From Henckelia pumila (lineage: Eukaryota > Streptophyta > Magnoliopsida > Lamiales > Gesneriaceae): a stretch of DNA of 64,000 nucleotides. The notes under the pieces are model-generated. The model was not told where the DNA came from, ran no database searches, and worked only from the letters and a program-made list of their open reading frames with translations. Positions 3,305-35,545 of this stretch are shown here, one piece after another. The position numbers and the translations under genes are program-made. How positions within the stretch are numbered: the first letter of the stretch is position 1; each line of letters opens with the position of its first letter. The stretch lies in contig NC_133123.1 in the NCBI RefSeq assembly GCF_033568475.1, forward strand, positions 18,338,622-18,402,621. Reading direction: 5' to 3'.

Positions 3305-3660
3305 CTTTGTAGGGACCCGACCCGGATCACCTATTAATTAACTTATTAAGTATGCAATTAAATATAAACCTAAAACGATAATCAAAGCAACTAAAAGATA
3401 ACAAGTTTACAACCCAAACCGGTAGTATACAATCGACGACTAAAATCCAAAGTAAAATAGTGATATACAACCAAATAGAAAATCAGTAAACCCTGAAACA
3501 AAAATACACCTCGCTGCAACCCCTGATCATGCTCTCAGCCCTGCCTCGATCCACTAGCCTCCCCCAATCTGAGTAATGTCCCGTCGAATGGGATGTCCAA
3601 AAAAACACAATAACATGGACATGAACGAACTACGCTCAGAACACAAACACAACTATAATT
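3305..3660. repeat. LTR-related fragment
   Basis: The segment 3575-3640 closely resembles 90-130: both carry the core CCGTCGAATGGG, then GTCC, an A-run and a similar GC-richer stretch, in the same orientation. This marks a second, diverged fragment of the repeat family at the window start. It is non-coding and a fossil. Confidence 0.4.
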
Positions 3661-5035
3661 AGTAGATATCATTCCTTAAGTTTCAATAATATAAATTAAT
3701 TTTTATTTTCATAACAATTTTTTGTTTAAGTGGTCTACTTACAATATTGAAACTCAAAAGCATATAAAGTTGATTAAATTTATTGATTATTTTGAATTTT
3801 TAATTGATAAGTTGTATATTAATTATAAAATAAAGGCGAAGAAAAGATTATGAGATTGTATCACAGAATTAAGATATTTTTCGTCATTATAACTATATTA
3901 TGCGAACATTATTAGTGGATATCATTCATTAAGTTTCGATATTATAAAGTATTTCTTATTTTACTTATAATAGATAATTCTGAATTTTATTATAGACAGT
4001 GTTATGTAGGGGGAAAATCCGGTACTTGGAATGCATAAATTATTTTCTTCCATCCCAATCTTAAAATATTTTCTCTCATATTTTTTTCAAAATTTAAAAT
4101 AATGGAGGTAATAATGATAGCCTAAGAAGTTTTTGTTATTTTTCAGATTAAATTTTGTTTAAAATAGTGGTGATATTAACGTAGATGTTTATGTTTATAT
4201 ATAGATATAGATTATTGAATAACAAAAAAAAAATATTACATGGACTAAAAAAGTTATGACTCAACAATTAAACTTTATTTCTTGAATTAATTGAATAATA
4301 ACAGTATAATTCAAAATACTCGAAAGCACAAAACAACTAAACCCAAAAAATTGACTTATTGAATATTAAAATTCCCAACTCTTGAAAAAAATTGAAATAA
4401 ACATTCTTTATTAGAAGAACAACATTTCATTCCTTCTCTTGTTTGATGGTAGATTTTAAATTTTTTTGTTGCCGATGAGGAGAAATCATACATCAGTGTT
4501 CTTTTCAAATGAGAATCCTTCAAACCATCTGGCGAAATTATTGTTTTGCATGTAGATTTTAAGGTTGTAGAAACTCCATCTTCCGACGATAGAACCTGTT
4601 GGAAAAAGGGATTTATATTTGGTAATGTAGCAAATTCGTTTTCATATTATACTAAATTTTATGATAATTACCTCCACATCTCCGGTTTCTGTCCTTTTCA
4701 ACTTAGAAAACAGATCCGATTCATGTGGTAATCCAATAATCTCAACAATAAATATATTAAATTTTAAATAATGATTATTAAAGGAAAGATTATTAAACCT
4801 GGCTCTCAAAAAATTTTCCAGCATATTTTTTCAGGATATTAGGGTCTGTTAAAATTTTCATGACAGTGTATATTCCATTAAATCTACGAATTATATTGGT
4901 TCTCACTTGAACTTTGAACATAATATATCGATCAGCTATATAATCAAATTATTTTGGCATTTCTGTAGCATCAATACCCTAAAATAATGTATGAAGGATT
5001 AATGTTTGATAAACGTCTATAAAAAAATTATGAAA
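3661..5035. other. AT-rich non-coding stretch
   Basis: There is no supported gene. One imperfect direct repeat is visible: 3661-3710 and 3914-3960 share the pattern GATATCATTC.TTAAGTTTC. Short open frames here have no recognisable motif. Confidence 0.4.
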
Positions 5036-5330: not shown

Positions 5331-6279
5331 AAAATTATACCTTATATTATCATAAAGTTATAATGAAAACCTGATTTTTCATTTCAGTCTTCAATTCTAG
5401 TGTTGTTTTTCCAAAAAGTTTAGCACATTCTCTATCCCAGAGTAAGAAAAATGCATTTTGAGTTATGTCAACAACTCTCACTTGAATCTTGAACCTAGGG
5501 ATCAAATGCTAAAAAAATATGTGCCGTAAATATATCGGAAGAAATCTAACTAATTATGATATATTTGTCATATTATTTTGGAGCAAACCTCATATAATAA
5601 TAAATTTTAAGATGATTAAAATACACGACACTTCAAGAGTAAACATACCAAAAATTTCAGATTCATCGATGACTTTTGTGCTCGTCAAATCTTTGAAGTT
5701 CTTGAATTCAAATATCTTTGACGGAAATTTGTGATATTCTATTTCGAAAACATTGGTTTTCTTGATGCGATTAATTTTGTAATTGTTCGATGTGGTTTTG
5801 ATTTTTATTTTATTTTGCGTAACTATCATATTTTTTTATAGCATAAAGACTATCTTCAATTTGTCAATGACATTATCTTTTATAGTTGCATGTATGCGTG
5901 TTTCTTGAAATTGAGAAAAATAATAATAAATCAAAGTGAGATTGAAGATAAAAATAAATATCAAAAAGTTAGTAAAAGCATAACAACTTGAATTTTAATA
6001 GAAGATAAATATAAATTACATAAAGTTCGTGTACTTAATTTAATATCTTGGAATATACATTCCATTGTCGGTTTTTCCTTGCTTTGGTATGGAAGTAGAT
6101 CGTAACAACGTATTAATCTTAACTTTAGCGCCCAATGTCAGTCTGAAAGATTTATATCACGAAAAACTCGAAACAATAGTGCCATTTGTCTGTACTGACT
6201 GGTGATTATGTGGTGACTATTTGAAGAATAACTCTAGATCGTAACAATTTAAATGTTAAATATATTTATACAATAATTG
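5331..6279. other. AT-rich non-coding stretch
   Basis: Nothing with gene-like composition or recognisable termini was found. The short open frames at 5519-5829 overlap on both strands and show no motif. Confidence 0.35.
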
Positions 6280-6532
6280 AGATCAAATCAAAATTAAAAA
6301 TGTTCTCTATTTTTGTTATTTTTTGATTTTATTGTTTTTAATTACCGAATGAAATATTATTAGTTATTTTGTACCTTTTTTTAATTACGGAGATTACGGA
6401 AATATATCTATGTAGATAAATATATGTAAATATTTATACGGTTTAGAATATTTATAAATCTATATTATATTATGTATCTAGAATAAAATAAGTATTTGTC
6501 ATAAATATGGTTAATATTGCAAACCAATAAAA

Positions 6533-6707
6533 TTTATTTTAAATAATGTTCTATTTACATTTCAAAATCTTTCATACTTTTTATTATCTTGTATTCTATT
6601 TTAGCAAACTAGTATTCCACCCGTGCGATACACGGATTATATCTTGAGTATAGTATGATTAAATTGATGGATGGTGTGAAAAATTTTGACTATGAAATTA
6701 AAACGAA
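6533..6707. repeat. 175-bp direct repeat, left copy
   Basis: Matches 9153-9327 with two differences in 175 bp. It holds 76 bp of the local tandem repeat followed by an inverted Helitron 3' end. The two copies exactly bracket the helicase-bearing segment 6708-9152. Confidence 0.85.
6609..6704 (-). mobile_element. Inverted Helitron 3' terminus
   Basis: Read on the minus strand this ends in a short hairpin (CCGTGTATCGCACGG), then GTGGAATA and CTAG followed by T, as expected of a Helitron 3' end. It is homologous over about 85 bp to the plus-strand terminus at 9067-9152. It faces away from the helicase that begins immediately to its right, so it is not the helicase's own 5' end. Confidence 0.7.
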
Positions 6708-8866
6708 CTGTATTATTTTTCGTTCCAAGGAAACAGAGATTTTCGATCGGGCGCATTTTTTACGTTCCTCCGGGATGTGGAGACATGTATTATTTAAGAT
6801 GTCTCCTAAATGTAAACCGTGGTGCCACTTGCTATGATGATATAACTAATGTTAATGGTGTTCAATACCATTCATTTCGTGATGCTTGCTATGCATTGGG
6901 ATTGTTGAATGATGACAAAGAGTATATCGACGGCATTATTGAGGCAAGTCATTGGGCTTCAACACAATCTTTGAGAATTTTACTTGCTACTCTATTGTCA
7001 TCGAACTGCATCAGTCGACCTGAAATACTTTGGGAATCATGTTGGAAGTATTTGTCAGATGATGTTTTATACAGACAACGTAACCTGTTGCAACACCAAG
7101 GTATGCATGCATCAATAAAGTTTTTCAGTTATATTTGTTAATTTTTAAAAGTATATATACATAGATGTGTATGTTTTTGATTAATACCTTTTTTTTTGGT
7201 AGAATTGCAATTGAGTGATGATGAAATTAAAAATTATGCATTGGTTGAAATTGAAAAATTATTACGAAGCTATGGAAAAAGTTTGCGTGAATTTCAATCA
7301 ATGCCATTTCCCGGTGATCAATATTTTCAGACTACTTCACGGAACAGATTAATACTTGATGAGTTGAGATTTGATAGAAGATCTTTGTCTGAAGAACATG
7401 ATAATCACCTTAATAAGTTGAACTCTGAGCAACGTCATGTGTATGATACGGTGATGAATGCAGTTCATTCAAATAAGGGAGGTGTTTTTTTTGTATATGG
7501 ATATGGAGGTACTGGAAAAACATTTGTCTGGAAGACTCTATCTGCATTCTTGAGATCGAAGGGAGAGATTGTGTTGAATGTGGCATCAAGTGGTATTGCA
7601 TCTCTTCTACTGCCTGGTGGAAGAACAGCTCATTCACGCTTTGCGATTCCATTTAATCCTAATGAAGAATCAACATGCAATATCAAACAAGGGAGTCCTC
7701 TTGCGGATCTTATTGAAAAATCTAAGCTTATAATTTGGGATGAAGCTCCAATGATGCATAAGTTCTGTTTTGAAGCTTTAGATAAAAGCATGAGAGATAT
7801 AATGAGATTTGTCAATCCTTCAAGCCTTCATTTGCCATTTGGGGGCAAAACCGTTGTTTTTGGTGGTGATTTTCGTCAAATATTGCCTGTTATTCCAAAA
7901 GGCAGTAGGCAAGATATTGTTAATGCAACCATCAATTCTTCTTATATCTGGAGACATTGTACAGTTTTAAGATTGACGAAAAACATGCGACTACAAAATT
8001 TAGGTTCTGATGAAGAATGTGATAAGACAAAGCAATTTTCTGATTGGATTGCTAATATAGGAGATGGAAAAATTGGAGAATCAAATGATGGTTATGCGAC
8101 AATAGATATTCCAGATGAACTTGTGCTGAAAGATTATAACGATCCTATTGCATCGATAGTCGAGAGTACGTATCCTTCGTCAGACATTTCTATCAGTGAT
8201 ACTGCATATTTTCAACAAAGAGCTATTTTGGCACCGACTCTTGATGTCGTTCAATCCATAAATGAATACATGATATCTCTGAATCATTCTGAGGGAAGAT
8301 TGTATTTAAGTTCTGATATGGCATGTCAATCGGATAAAAGCGTTGGTTTATTGCATGATGTTCATACCCCTGAATACTTAAATGGAATAAGATGCTCTGG
8401 AGTACCAAATCACGAGTTGAATTTGAAAGTTGGAACTCCAGTTATGTTGCTGCGGAACATAGATCATTCTCTTGGTTTATGCAACGGCACTAGATTGATT
8501 GTGACTAGGCTCGGAAACCATGTTTTGGAAGGAAATATTCTGACTGGAAGTAATGCGGGTCACAAAGTACTTATTCCAAGAATGTCTTTGACTCCTTCTG
8601 ATCCAAGACTTCCTTTCAAATTTCAAAGAAGACAGTATCCTTTGATTGTATCATATGCAATGACAATCAACAAAAGTCAGGATCAATCATTATCTCATGT
8701 AGGACTTTTTTTGAGGAATTCCGTGTTTAGTCATGGTCAGTTGTATGTCGCTGTATCTAGAGTTACCAATCCTAAGGGTCTCAAAATATTGATATGTGAT
8801 GGCAAGACCAATCAGAAAAATTCAACAACAAACGTTGTATTTAAGGAAGTTTTTCAAAATTTATAA
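6708..8866 (+). CDS. Helitron Pif1-type helicase, 5'-truncated, one intron
   Basis: This encodes the C-terminal (helicase) half of a plant Helitron Rep/helicase protein. Two coding blocks, about 6708-7100 and 7203-8866, join across a 102-bp GT-AG intron to read ...RNLLQHQ-ELQLSDDEIKN in frame. Visible motifs are Walker A GYGGTGKT (about 7500-7520), Walker B IIWDEAP (about 7733-7750), GGDFRQILPVIPKGSRQD, and the late helicase motifs MTINKSQDQS and YVAVSRV. The frame is open to the stop at 8864-8866. The N-terminal zinc-finger and HUH Rep nuclease, needed for rolling-circle transposition, are absent: homology starts abruptly at the edge of the 175-bp repeat. It therefore looks like a recent fragment rather than an autonomous transposase. 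Pif1 host helicases are an alternative, but the Helitron end at 9152 argues against that. Confidence 0.85.
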
Positions 8867-9152
8867 GATAATTTGTTTGTTTTTTTAATTATATGATATA
8901 TAATGCATATTTCGATTGTTTGTTCAATATTTTTTTTAATATTTTTTTTATCATTAACTGTATAAAATAATATCACGTGCATTGCATAACATATATTTGT
9001 TTAAAGAGTTTGTCCTTTTTACATTATTCTAATTACTCACTATAAAATTAAATTTGTTTATATTTTACTTTTATAGTCAAATTTCAATTTAATACAATTT
9101 AATTATATTATACACAAGATATAGCCCGTGCATCGCACGGGTGAAATACTAG
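6708..9152 (+). mobile_element. Helitron 3' half with 3' terminus
   Basis: The segment carries the helicase fragment and an AT-rich tail. It ends in a hairpin (CCCGTGC-ATC-GCACGGG at 9125-9141), GTGAAATA and CTAG at 9149-9152, followed by T. This matches Helitron 3' ends, which insert between A and T. No matching 5' end beginning TC is seen; the left edge abuts an inverted 3' end instead. Confidence 0.75.
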
Positions 9153-9327
9153 TTTATTTTAAATAATGTTCTATTCACATTTCAAAATCTTTCATACTTT
9201 TTATTATCTTGTATTCTATTTTAGCAAACTAGTATTCCACCCGTGCGATACACGGATTATATCTTGAGTATAGTATGATTAAATTGGTGGATGGTGTGAA
9301 AAATTTTGACTATGAAATTAAAACGAA
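9153..9327. repeat. 175-bp direct repeat, right copy
   Basis: It is the partner of 6533-6707 (two differences) and begins at the base after the Helitron CTAG at 9152. In this copy the inverted Helitron end continues to the right into more Helitron sequence, so this is probably the original arrangement and the left copy the duplicate. Confidence 0.85.
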
Positions 9328-9585
9328 AATAATTTTAATTTTACAATGACTAATTAATAAGAATAACGTAGAAAAAAAATTTAAACTATAAAAGACAATC
9401 TTTAAATAAAACATATGTCGTGTGCATTGTAAGTGATGTTATTTTATATAATTAATTATTAAAAATTGTATGAATGAACATTTAAACAAATACTTGAAAT
9501 TTAAATTAGCTAAATGGATTATATATCATACAATTGAAAAACAAACAAATTATCTTCTAAATTATGGAAAACTTCCTTAAAATAA
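9229..9585 (-). mobile_element. Inverted 5'-truncated Helitron 3' fragment
   Basis: Read on the minus strand, 9585 to 9229 matches the plus-strand region from about 8838 to 9152: the last codons of the helicase, the post-stop tract (GATAATTTGTTTG), the CGTG.GCATTG tract, and the terminal hairpin with CTAG at 9229-9232. Divergence is visibly greater than between the 175-bp repeats. A roughly 35-bp direct repeat (9498-9530 and 9584-9622, core AAATTAGCTAAATG.ATTATATATCAT) flanks its truncated end. Confidence 0.7.
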
Positions 9586-10370
9586 TTTGAAATTCAAATT
9601 AGCTAAATGAATTATATATCATAAATATGGGTAATATATTGCAAACCAATAAAATTTACTGTAAATAATGTTCTATTTACATTTCAAAATCTTTCATACT
9701 TTTTATTATCTTGTATTCTATTTTAGCAAATTGAATCTTCTCAATTCTATATTTTTGTTATTTTTTGATTTTATTGTTTTTAATTGAAGGTCAAAAAATA
9801 ATTAGTAGTTTTGTATAGTTTTTAATTTTTAATTACATAATTATATAATACGTATACAAACATATGCAAGATTCTGGATATATGTGTATATTTATATGGT
9901 TTTGAATCTTACTAAATCTATATTATGTATTTTTGTATTTATTTTTATAAAATGTAGATAGAAAATATTATATAATTTGTTTTATATGTTTTTCTATATT
10001 CTTTTATTTCTAAGAGTTATCTCTATTAAAATAAGAATTTAATATAATCAAGGAAAATTGTTATGTCTGTCTAAGCATGATCTAAAATAAATCAAATTTT
10101 AACCTCTATAATATGGTAAATATGATGTATCTAACATGGTATAAGTATTTGTCATAAATATGGTTAATAATGCAAACCAATCAAATTTTACTATAAACAA
10201 TGCTTTATTTACCTTCGTTCAAAATCTTTAATACTTTTAATTATTATCTTGTATTCCATTATAGCAAATTGAATCTTCACAATTTTATTTTTTTGCTATT
10301 TTTTTATTTTATTGTTTTTAATTGAAGGCCGATAAATAATTAATGGTTTTGTATAGTTTTTAATTACATA

Positions 10371-10376
<6 letters not shown>

Positions 10377-10431
<55 letters not shown>
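10377..10431. repeat. (TA)n microsatellite
   Basis: About 55 bp of uninterrupted TA dinucleotides inside one unit of the local tandem repeat. A shorter TA run lies at about 11055-11081. Confidence 0.95.
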
Positions 10432-10434
<3 letters not shown>

Positions 10435-10690
10435 GCAATGGTTATGGAAAATTGTTTTACTATATTCTTTTATTTCTATGAGTTATATCAATTAAAATAA
10501 GAATTTCACGTAATCAAGAAAAATTGTTATGTATGTTTAAGCATTAACTAAAATGAATCAAATTTGAACCTCATAAATATGGTAAATATTGTAAACGAAT
10601 AAAATTTTTCTGTTAATAATGCTCTATTTCCATTCGTGCTCAATCTTTCATATTATTAAGTATAATCTTGCATTTTATTTAAGAAAATTG

Positions 10691-11825
10691 AACCTCCGAA
10701 GTTGAAAGACTCTTTAAATGTTAAAAGAAAATTAGGTAATTATTTCATTTACGGTACGTACATTTTATATCTAATAATTATTAAATCTTCTAAATTGGTT
10801 TTATTATTAAAGAAATATAGTAGTTTTTAACAATTTTATATATTAAAGCATTTATTTGATATATACGGATTCATAAAATTAATAAATTTGTATAGAGTGA
10901 TTAAACAAATTTTAAAATGATAATTTATTTATTATTATATTTTTAGTATTTATTTATCTACATTTTAAAGTGTAATTTTTTTAGCAAATCAAAACATTAT
11001 AGCCTGTATAAATTTGAGTCAATTATATCTGTGAGTTATCTTTATATTATATTATATTATATATATATATATATATATATAATGTATGAAAAGATTTTAA
11101 ATGTGTTTCGTTGCATTTAAAATATAAATAGAAGTAAGGAATGTTTTTTTTTTTCCTTTTTAGCTTAAATTTTTGGCGAGATTTTATTATATGTGGGGGC
11201 AAAAACTACTATAAATTTTGTTCAACTTTACTCGTGGCAAAAACCAATAATTATTTCTCTCAGAATCAGGTAGAAATAATATATAATATGAGTGGGCTAT
11301 AAATTTTGTTCAACTTTCTTCACTACCCACGCACACGTGGGCCGGGGTTGGCCAGAAATTACATTACTCGTATCTTTAATCCAAAATACCAATGCATGTA
11401 TGCGCGAGTTCTCCCTTAGCCTTTCGCTCAATTTTGATTATTCGTCCCTGAATTTTTCCAGCCCTTTTTCAAGGGTTTCGCTTGCGTGAAATCCGATCTA
11501 TTTGTTTATTCTTTAACCAACGTCTCATCATTTTTTTTTGGTTTTAATCAACATTATACGACAAAAATTAATTTCAATGAATAACCACAAGAAAATGATG
11601 TAAACACACTAAATAAGTACAAAAACAAAGTGCCTTAAAAAAAATTACAAAAACAAAGTAACTCGAAGTGTAAAACCACAATACCTTGTGTGCTTATGAA
11701 GGGTGAATTTAATATTTATCAATTTTTTATTATCAAATAATTTTTAATAAAATTGGAGTCGAACAAAAGATAAAATATCTGATCGTCCGTCATTCTATAA
11801 GTGAAATACTATCTATATTATATTA
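10691..11825. other. AT-rich non-coding stretch
   Basis: There is no supported gene. A 20-bp direct repeat, CTATAAATTTTGTTCAACTT, occurs at about 11209 and 11298. The segment 11320-11500 is less AT-rich and has short open frames, but no motif or splice context supports a gene. Confidence 0.4.
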
Positions 11826-28929: not shown

Positions 28930-29895
28930 ATGAATTCTAAGTATAGTTGGAGCTGAACAACAAAAAAAAATGTTGTATAGTTTTCACTTGGATTCATGCG
29001 CGAGGAGTTAGTTTAGAGAGCAGTTGACCCTTAATTAGCAACGAGCGTTTGAGAATTCCATGTATAGCCTGAGCTGAACAGCCAAAGATGTTGTATAGTT
29101 CTCATTTGGAAAAAGTACATTTTTGGTCCTGTAACATTAAATTCGCATTTTTAGTTTTGTAATTTATATGATTTTTTCATTTAAGTCATGTTAACACTAA
29201 ATTTACATTTTTAATCATGTAACTTGCATTTTTTTTAATCTTTAGTCATGTTAACAATGAAATTCATTTTTTTTGTCCTGCAACTTTCGTATATTTTTAT
29301 TTTAGTCATATTAAAGGTGAATTTTCATTTTTAATACTTTTATTTATAGTTTTATTTATATTATTTATTTTATAAGATGGTATTTAGTGTAAAAATATTT
29401 TGAATAATTTTTAGTTGATTGTTTTTTTATTTAATTCATTTAAATTTTAAAAGTTTTAAAATATGTAAATCACAATATATTATGATTAAAAATATAAAAA
29501 AAGTATGCAATTTATGGAATTAAAAATGTAAATTCATCGATAATATGACTAAAAATAAAATTAAAAAATATGGTAGTTACATGACAAAAAAATAAAAATT
29601 CAGTGTTAACAGGACTAAAAATAAAAAATAATGTAAATTACATGACTAAAAATGTAAATTCAGTGTTAACAGGACTTAAGATGAAAAACTTATGTTAGTT
29701 ACAGGACTAAAAATGCGAATTCAATGTTAATAGGACCAAAAATAAAAAAAAATGCAAGTTATATGACTAAAATTGCAAATTTACTTTTAACAGAACCAAA
29801 AATGGAAAATGTGCAAAGTACAGGATCAAAAATATAATTATCCCATCTTGGACGTTTCATGAGGAGTTAGTTATGATAGAAGTGTTAGAGATCTA
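28930..29895. repeat. ~115-bp direct duplication split by a foldback element
   Basis: Unit 1 (28930-29048) and unit 2 (29049-29109 continuing at 29848-29895) share GAATTC.A.GTATAG, GAGCTGAACA, GATGTTGTATAGTT and GAGGAGTTAGTT. Unit 2 is split after CATTTGG by the foldback at 29110-29847; unit 1 shows the uninterrupted order. Confidence 0.65.
29110..29847. repeat. 740-bp foldback element of repeated 'GGTCCTGTAAC' tracts
   Basis: The left half repeats the pattern TTTTGGTCCTGTAAC / TTTAGTCATGTTAAC in one direction and the right half repeats the complement (GTTACAGGACTAAAAATG, GTTAACAGGAC). The whole folds back on itself with the axis near 29440. The ends AAAGTACATTTTTGGTCCTG and, inverted, AATTATATTTTTGATCCTG correspond. 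No coding capacity. Confidence 0.7.
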
Positions 29896-33845: not shown

Positions 33846-33854
33846 TTGCATATT

Positions 33855-33855
<1 letters not shown>

Positions 33856-33932
<77 letters not shown>
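33856..33932. repeat. (ATA)n trinucleotide microsatellite
   Basis: About 25 uninterrupted ATA/TAA units, next to the right end of the tandem array. Likely polymorphic. Confidence 0.95.
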
Positions 33933-33933
<1 letters not shown>

Positions 33934-35416: not shown

Positions 35417-35494
<78 letters not shown>

Positions 35495-35545
35495 TTTAAT
35501 GCAAAACCGCATGCACCGCACCGCCTTATCTTATATAATTTCTTT
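35290..35545. mobile_element. Probable MITE containing an (ATT)n microsatellite
   Basis: The left side is rich in CCGCCCGAACCG / CACCGTATCG tracts and the right side in ACCGCATGCACCGCACCGCC, a composition typical of small plant hAT-like MITEs. They flank about 25 ATT units at 35419-35492. Target duplication not resolved. Confidence 0.4.

Follow-up and report, generated by a model that had tools for sequence, protein, structure and literature searches.

Our analysis of a 64,000-nucleotide window of the Henckelia pumila genome (G000:C4:18338622-18402621, within an 884.7-Mb assembly) revealed a broken Helitron transposon, here called H1, that is bracketed by a long direct duplication of its target. 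The two copies of the duplication, located on the plus strand at window positions 6533 to 6707 and 9153 to 9327, are identical at 173 of 175 positions in a direct comparison, and the right copy starts directly at the 3′ end of the Helitron (CTAG|T). A duplication whose first base directly adjoins the 3′ terminus was found in five insertions, namely, in H1, in an older inverted fragment beside it (H2), and in copies of the family at three other loci of the genome (L009, L016, and L017). We consider it likely, with a probability of about 0.73, that H1 arose by a one-ended Helitron insertion in which the 5′ part was lost, the second target strand broke, the overhangs were filled in, and the ends were closed by error-prone joining.

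H1 and the duplication around it

The 175-bp match ends abruptly, with not one further matching base on either side. The insertion site of H1 is A|T, with an A at position 6532, directly before the left copy, and a T at positions 6533 and 9153. The left copy is made up of 76 bp of a host repeat, termed R, followed by 99 bp of the older fragment H2. An earlier note on this DNA, made from the sequence alone, had described the 175-bp direct duplication with its two differences, a Pif1-type helicase and a proper Helitron 3′ end between the copies, and an inverted Helitron end inside the repeat. All of these observations were confirmed, and the inverted end was located on the minus strand at 6609 and again at 9229. 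What the earlier note had missed is that the element is truncated at its 5′ end and that the inverted end marks what appears to be another insertion of this type.

Judged by its sequence, H1 is a fragment of a Helitron, 5′-truncated but with an intact 3′ terminus. It occupies positions 6719 to 9152 of the plus strand and is 97.9 to 99.7% identical to the copies at loci L009 to L012 over this stretch. The segment between the two target copies encodes a Pif1 helicase (PF05970, E value of 5.6e-100; PF21530 also matched). The first coding exon, at 6719 to 7100, is broken at its 5′ end and comprises the linker and the start of the helicase part, aligning to residues 860 to 969 of the 1496 residues of Helraiser (7lcc). 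It is followed by a probable GT...AG intron at 7101 to 7202, placed from the sequence and the reading frames, and by a second exon at 7203 to 8866, an open reading frame (ORF) which encodes the Pif1-type helicase proper, aligns to Helraiser residues 1024 to 1494, and ends with a stop codon at 8864 to 8866. The N-terminal and Rep regions of a RepHel protein are missing from H1. Because these parts are absent while the close relative L010 encodes both domains (Helitron_like_N, PF14214, 8.1e-48; PIF1, 4.9e-99), we call H1 5′-truncated, and the truncation point corresponds to L010 position 5490.

The 3′ end of H1 is that of a canonical Helitron: between positions 9125 and 9152 it comprises a subterminal hairpin, CCCGTGC-AT-GCACGGG, at 9125 to 9142 and a CTRR-type terminus, CTAG, at 9149 to 9152, with T as the next base. 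The 5′-TC terminus is absent, since the element breaks off inside its ORF at 6719 with filler DNA before the break, and H1 departs from the canonical absence of a target site duplication (TSD) by its 175-bp duplication starting at CTAG. No reverse transcriptase was seen in H1, in which Pfam gave helicase domains only and the 3′ end consists of the hairpin and CTAG, and a Pfam scan of two H1 segments and four L010 ORFs gave no Fanzor domain. When relatives were sought in the viral_contigs set, 19 stretches fitted a pattern and none was confirmed.

The 5′ junction was examined by comparison with the listed copies that reach the start of H1. Nine of them begin at query position 187 (window 6719), four at 190, one at 206, and none earlier. 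At the base level, L009 to L012 share CGTTCCAAGG onwards and are unlike the window before TTCGTTCC. Of the Helitron segment 6708 to 9152 delimited in the earlier note, the 3′ limit thus stands and the start does not: because the homology of the relatives begins at 6719, positions 6708 to 6718 (plus strand) constitute an 11-bp filler at the truncated junction. Ten bp of this filler recur at 6786 to 6795 inside H1, and in simulations a 10-bp match of this kind arose in the first 100 bp of H1 with a probability of about 0.0005. The template of the filler nevertheless is uncertain, as other 10- to 11-bp words that straddle the filler edge also occur within 4 to 13 kb.

A genome search, in which 40 of 573 candidates were scored, addressed whether the repeat travels with the element and whether the interval 6533 to 9327, as the earlier note had considered, is amplified as a unit. 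The unit represented by query positions 1 to 186 was found at no other scored place; matches to segments of it involved the host repeat and inverted Helitron ends. We therefore rejected both the idea that the 175-bp repeat is part of the element, as no other copy among the 40 carries it, and the idea of an amplified tandem unit.

The older fragment H2 and its host repeat

H2 lies on the minus strand at 9229 to 9582 and is a 354-bp, 5′-truncated 3′ fragment of a Helitron, 99 bp of which are repeated at 6609 to 6707. It is 89 to 91% identical to L014, L015, L017, L024, and L025, whose matches to H2 stop at 9582. Among the 39 other scored places that match H2, 36 end at query positions 427 to 433 (window 9579 to 9585), two end earlier (392 and 340), and one continues to 471. 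At most 19 of the 75 R bases that adjoin the H2 end are present in any of these 39 places, and the 175-bp copy is therefore most likely of local origin.

The truncated end of H2 is also joined to filler DNA. About 36 bp at 9583 to 9618 are a copy of H2's own positions 9494 to 9530, the alignment having 33 matches, 2 mismatches, and 2 gap columns over the overlapping stretch 9588 to 9623. Beyond the filler, positions 9619 to 9730 hold the distal copy of a target duplication of about 111 bp, whose partner consists of 6499 to 6532 plus 9153 to 9228 and is also present as 6499 to 6608. Compared with the DNA that adjoins the CTAG end of H2 (6499 to 6608), the distal copy shows 107 matches, 3 mismatches, and one 2-bp gap, whereas other pairs of R units are 76 to 90% alike, most of them with more gaps. 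In the light of these alignments, H2 most plausibly represents a truncated insertion of earlier date that has a separate duplication of about 111 bp and into whose flank H1 inserted later. The divergence of the two duplications (3 mismatches plus one 2-bp gap per about 110 bp for H2, 2 mismatches per 175 bp for H1) fits the order given by the nesting, in which the H1 duplication contains part of H2, although the substitutions are few.

Both insertions are hosted by a tandem-repeat region on the minus strand, which extends over 5592 to 6532 and, according to the repeat comparison, continues as units R2 to R4 at 9731 to 10700. It resembles the repeats of the L018-type Helitrons and is homologous over much of its length to L018, L020 to L023, L026 to L028, and L011. 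In L018, L020 to L023, and L026 to L028, the helicase part starts at a shared point (H1 position of about 740 in several of them) with AT-rich R-type tandem repeats before it, and these elements possibly form a helicase-only, non-autonomous subfamily. Truncated copies of the H1 family also lie directly beside R-type repeats like those of window 5592 to 6532 in L011 (804 to 1964) and L013 (3422 to 4929; here and below, positions within loci are those of the oriented locus), and there may be a target preference for AT-rich arrays of the R type. Among the relatives of H2, L039, L040, and L041 all become homologous to L014 from its element position 3651 onwards, which suggests a non-autonomous family whose members have no more than roughly the last 475 bp in common.

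Recurrence of the duplication in the genome

Twenty stretches around copies of the H1 family were compared with themselves for direct repeats. Locus L009 carries a 266-bp duplication, 265 bp of which are identical, and L017 carries one of 313 bp with 306 identical positions, 7 mismatches, and 4 gap columns. In L016, the left copy is about 269 bp long, the right copy carries about 160 bp extra, and the last 53 bp are identical. The copies have diverged by 0.4% in L009, by about 2% in L017, and, gaps not counted, by about 5% in L016. In four of the five insertions (H1, H2, L009, and L017), an A directly precedes the left copy, making the target A|T, whereas L016 has a T in this place.

The five insertions share an intact 3′ end and differ in the extent of the 5′ truncation. 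In L010 coordinates, where the 3′ end is at 7922, their breakpoints fall at 2809, 4368, 5490, 5740, and about 7610. In L016 and L017, the left copy of the duplication adjoins the point where the element breaks off, and a 3-bp microhomology is found at this junction (TCC in L016, CTT in L017). In L009, the left copy and the element break are separated by 134 bp that are absent from related copies at that place, and a stretch similar to these 134 bp was found inverted in L026. Filler DNA thus is present at the 5′ junction of H1 (11 bp), H2 (about 36 bp, self-copied), and L009 (134 bp). The target of L009 runs into a tandem array of units of about 440 bp that are 95 to 96% alike (L009 7960 to 9262), and 101 bp of the L009 duplication lie outside this array. 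The loci L016 and L017 contain no further direct repeat of comparable size and identity.

Altogether, 5 of the 36 distinct 3′ ends examined have a duplication. These 36 ends comprise a set of 26, six further ends (L019, L021, L022, L026, L027, and L028), L037, and three more (L039, the second end of the L040/L023 stretch, and L041), with 10 further ends of the pattern list left out. The set of 26 corresponds to 27 rows, as the minus-strand rows at 6609 and 9229 represent one insertion and were counted once. Short duplications fall mostly below detection in this survey. In about 14 copies, the 5′ break seemingly lies inside the DNA read; 5 of these have a duplication and 9 do not. The eight pattern-list ends in L029 to L036 gave no duplication, a match in L036 having been dropped as an AT simple repeat. 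A match in L013 at 7872 (−9 to +37, 79%) was likewise dropped, as it represents a second Helitron end in that locus; L038 has no recognisable 3′ end, and the 3′ end of L019 is decayed. Finally, L010 and L012, the longest copies, were rejected as controls lacking a duplication, since both share sequence with other copies upstream of about position 1300, which was first taken as the break.

To estimate how often a duplication would meet a 3′ terminus by chance, we counted the starts of direct repeats (at least 100 bp and at least 85% identity) in loci L009 to L036 plus the first 14 kb of the window. The 42 direct-repeat pairs found there include the five cases, and the repeat starts cover 545 of 497,656 positions on both strands (a rate of 0.0011). 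At this background rate, the probability is about 6e-10 for 5 of 36 ends and about 8e-6 for 3 of 34 ends when the two insertions of the window are set aside, and a chance origin was rejected on this basis. The count replaced a random-anchor control that had proved too coarse in the presence of tandem arrays, with 34 of 591 anchors scoring at least 20.

Several other repeats were noted along the way. In L014, the first 97 bp of the Helitron copy occur twice, at 2734 to 2830 and, 1019 bp further on, at 3753 to 3849, and a tandem duplication across the 5′ junction is the suggested cause. In L039, a direct repeat of 889 bp (1 to 875 and 3656 to 4543, 95.5% alike) has a Helitron 3′ part in each copy. 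Elsewhere in the window, a near-perfect inverted repeat of about 76 to 82 bp lies at 33850 to 33933 and 35418 to 35505, with its arms 1.49 kb apart, and positions 29497 to 29807 hold five head-to-tail units of about 60 bp that are 69 to 75% identical to the first.

A proposed one-ended insertion and its alternatives

We propose the following course of events for H1. The RepHel transposase would cut one target strand at A|T and join the 3′ end of the transposon (CTAG) to the T. The matching strand transfer at the 5′ end would then fail, with loss of the 5′ part of the element, including the N-terminus and Rep, and the opposite target strand would break 175 bp further on (110 to 315 bp across the cases). 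Both long 5′ overhangs would be filled in, and error-prone end joining would attach the free transposon end to the far overhang and leave a short filler at the joint. Such joining would explain both the fillers and the 3-bp microhomologies. The outcome would be an element that keeps its 3′ terminus, is broken internally on the 5′ side, and is flanked by a long direct duplication of the target that begins at CTAG. H2 probably inserted likewise at an earlier time, in the opposite orientation and with a duplication of about 111 bp, as would the copies at L009, L016, and L017 elsewhere in the genome. The structure of the products, their precision and recurrence, the placement at A|T in four of five, and the filler or microhomology at the 5′ junctions were observed directly; the order of the strand joinings, the break of the second strand, the fill-in, and the pathway of end joining are the parts of this scheme that we infer.

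A number of observations weigh against this scheme. No duplication was detectable in L011, L013 (at 7872 and at 2582), L014, L015, L019, L024, L025, or L037. The 5′ breaks were placed where homology to relatives stops, and the copies were chosen for having a 3′ end, so that the 3′ anchoring is partly a matter of ascertainment. In L016, the left copy follows a T, the 3′ end reads ATAG, and the right copy has its extra 160 bp or so, while the alignment in L017 passes the terminus by about 8 bp, which we take as chance. One relative of H2 aligns for 41 bases beyond the supposed break of H2, and the H2 duplication itself sits in a tandem repeat, where a deletion between neighbouring units offers an alternative that we regard as weaker. 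Moreover, the scheme needs 5′ overhangs, whereas fill-in duplications in mammalian cells form mostly at 3′ overhangs, according to passages in PMC8355091.

The structure of these insertions also resembles that left by target-primed insertion of long interspersed nuclear elements (LINEs), which is characterized by 5′ truncation, a fixed 3′ end, TSDs of variable length, and microhomology or filler at the 5′ junction. Unlike in LINEs, nothing here indicates an RNA, a reverse transcriptase, or a poly(A) tail, and the source is a DNA transposon with a RepHel protein. It is conceivable, though rather doubtful, that in land plants canonical Helitrons also insert regularly by a second, LINE-like route: joining of the 3′ end to the target would come first, and copying of the second strand would start at a nick or replication gap 100 to 300 bp away. 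The duplication would then mark where this gap lay, which could, for instance, be of Okazaki size and situated at a fork, and most of the numerous truncated Helitron fragments of plant genomes that hold only the helicase would stem from this route.

Patch repair is an improbable alternative to one-ended insertion. In this case, staggered nicks on opposite strands that are unrelated to transposition would be filled in, and the Helitron 3′ fragment would be captured as filler between the tandem duplicates. The staggered-nick tandem duplications of Vaughn and Bennetzen and of Schiml et al. reportedly have no transposon terminus at their edge. Tandem duplications that arise in plants from nearby nicks on opposite strands, by the same fill-in into direct repeats, have been described (citations in PMC8355091, as given in passages of that paper), and the 5′ junctions, with their filler and microhomology, are consistent with end joining. 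The survey, moreover, chose copies by their 3′ end, and fragments without one were not sought. A captured filler, however, would be expected to have random edges on both sides, whereas in all five insertions one edge coincides with the Helitron terminus, and four of the five lie at A|T.

Even less probable is a course in which the full-length element inserted in the ordinary way without any duplication, flank and element were later duplicated in tandem, and a deletion removed the rest. Copies of this kind do have tandem duplications in their vicinity (one of about 1019 bp in L014 and one of 889 bp in L039), but this course requires two later events with one edge at the transposon terminus, five separate times. 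The earlier note had weighed a side reaction of rolling-circle insertion against a tandem duplication with later gain; the former is supported, in the form of an insertion by the 3′ end only with loss of the 5′ part, and the latter is not supported because the duplication starts at the transposon terminus in H1, H2, L009, L016, and L017. We attach a slightly lower probability still to the view that the repeats are units of a host tandem array and that insertion with deletion between units mimics a duplication. Although H1 and H2 sit in the R array and the target of L009 runs into its 440-bp array, 99 bp of the 175-bp copy come from H2, which is no part of the R array, and 101 bp of the L009 duplication likewise fall outside the array at that locus. 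Furthermore, R units differ by 10 to 24% plus gaps while the heads of the duplicates differ by only 3%, the R-H2 junction is present in none of the 39 other scored places, and L016 and L017 lack any other direct repeat of such size and identity. An assembly artefact, in which a collapsed or mis-joined read overlap created the repeat, is very improbable, as substitutions distinguish the two copies and as three further loci show the pattern, each with its own duplication length and divergence and each with the boundary at the 3′ terminus.

One-ended insertion remains our preferred reading, and the closest known parallel comes from Chlamydomonas reinhardtii. According to PMC3627910, 5′-truncated CRe-1/2/3 Helitrons in this alga were ascribed to "one-ended transposition"; their 3′ ends are mostly intact, their 5′ ends are broken at many places, their TSDs measure 7 to 19 bp, with some of 44, 50, 93, 242, and 443 bp, beside the normal target motif, and some copies have extra sequence at the 5′ junction. 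The H1-type copies likewise keep the 3′ end, vary in the 5′ break, and carry target duplications of variable length that start at the normal target motif (here A|T in four of five, with T in L016). The elements differ in that those of Chlamydomonas are described in the same paper as non-autonomous, Fanzor1-bearing members of the Helitron2 group with T-rich tetranucleotide targets, whereas the termini found here are of the CTAG/A|T Helitron1 type and a RepHel-encoding relative, L010, is present in this plant genome. The five duplications here are also long (about 111 to 313 bp), in a survey in which short ones were not systematically detectable. Precise use of one end only is shared with the one-ended transposition of IS91 (passages in PMC3627910, PMC4778049, and PMC10701932), but the IS91 events are stated in the first of these sources not to be associated with target duplications.

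By analogy with the Chlamydomonas copies, H1-type insertions are a land-plant, CTAG-type variant of truncated, duplication-flanked Helitrons. Among the literature matches listed, which consist mainly of titles and openings of abstracts and cover subscription journals thinly, no paper describing long target duplications for CTAG-type Helitrons of plants was seen. In the passages that we cite, insertion without target duplication is stated as a rule (PMC5876387 and PMC4778049), and in the standard model it is the absence of a duplication at the precise insertion between A and T that is ascribed to a single-strand process (PMC5876387). Canonical Helitrons such as Helraiser and the wheat Xuan-Feng have a 5′-TC end and no target duplication (passages in PMC4778049, PMC5876387, and PMC13286980). 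H1 shares with them the CTAG 3′ end with its hairpin, the A|T target, and the RepHel relatedness (to Helraiser, 7lcc), and it differs in lacking the 5′-TC end and in having the duplication. Truncated copies whose long duplications begin at the 3′ terminus are a recurrent class, and they suggest that a Helitron can be joined to its target by the 3′ end without the 5′ end, which bears on the order of strand transfer in Helitron insertion and points to a possible source of the 5′-truncated Helitrons in plant genomes. Annotation rules that rely on the absence of a TSD will misread such copies, while each duplication provides an internal clock for the date of its insertion.

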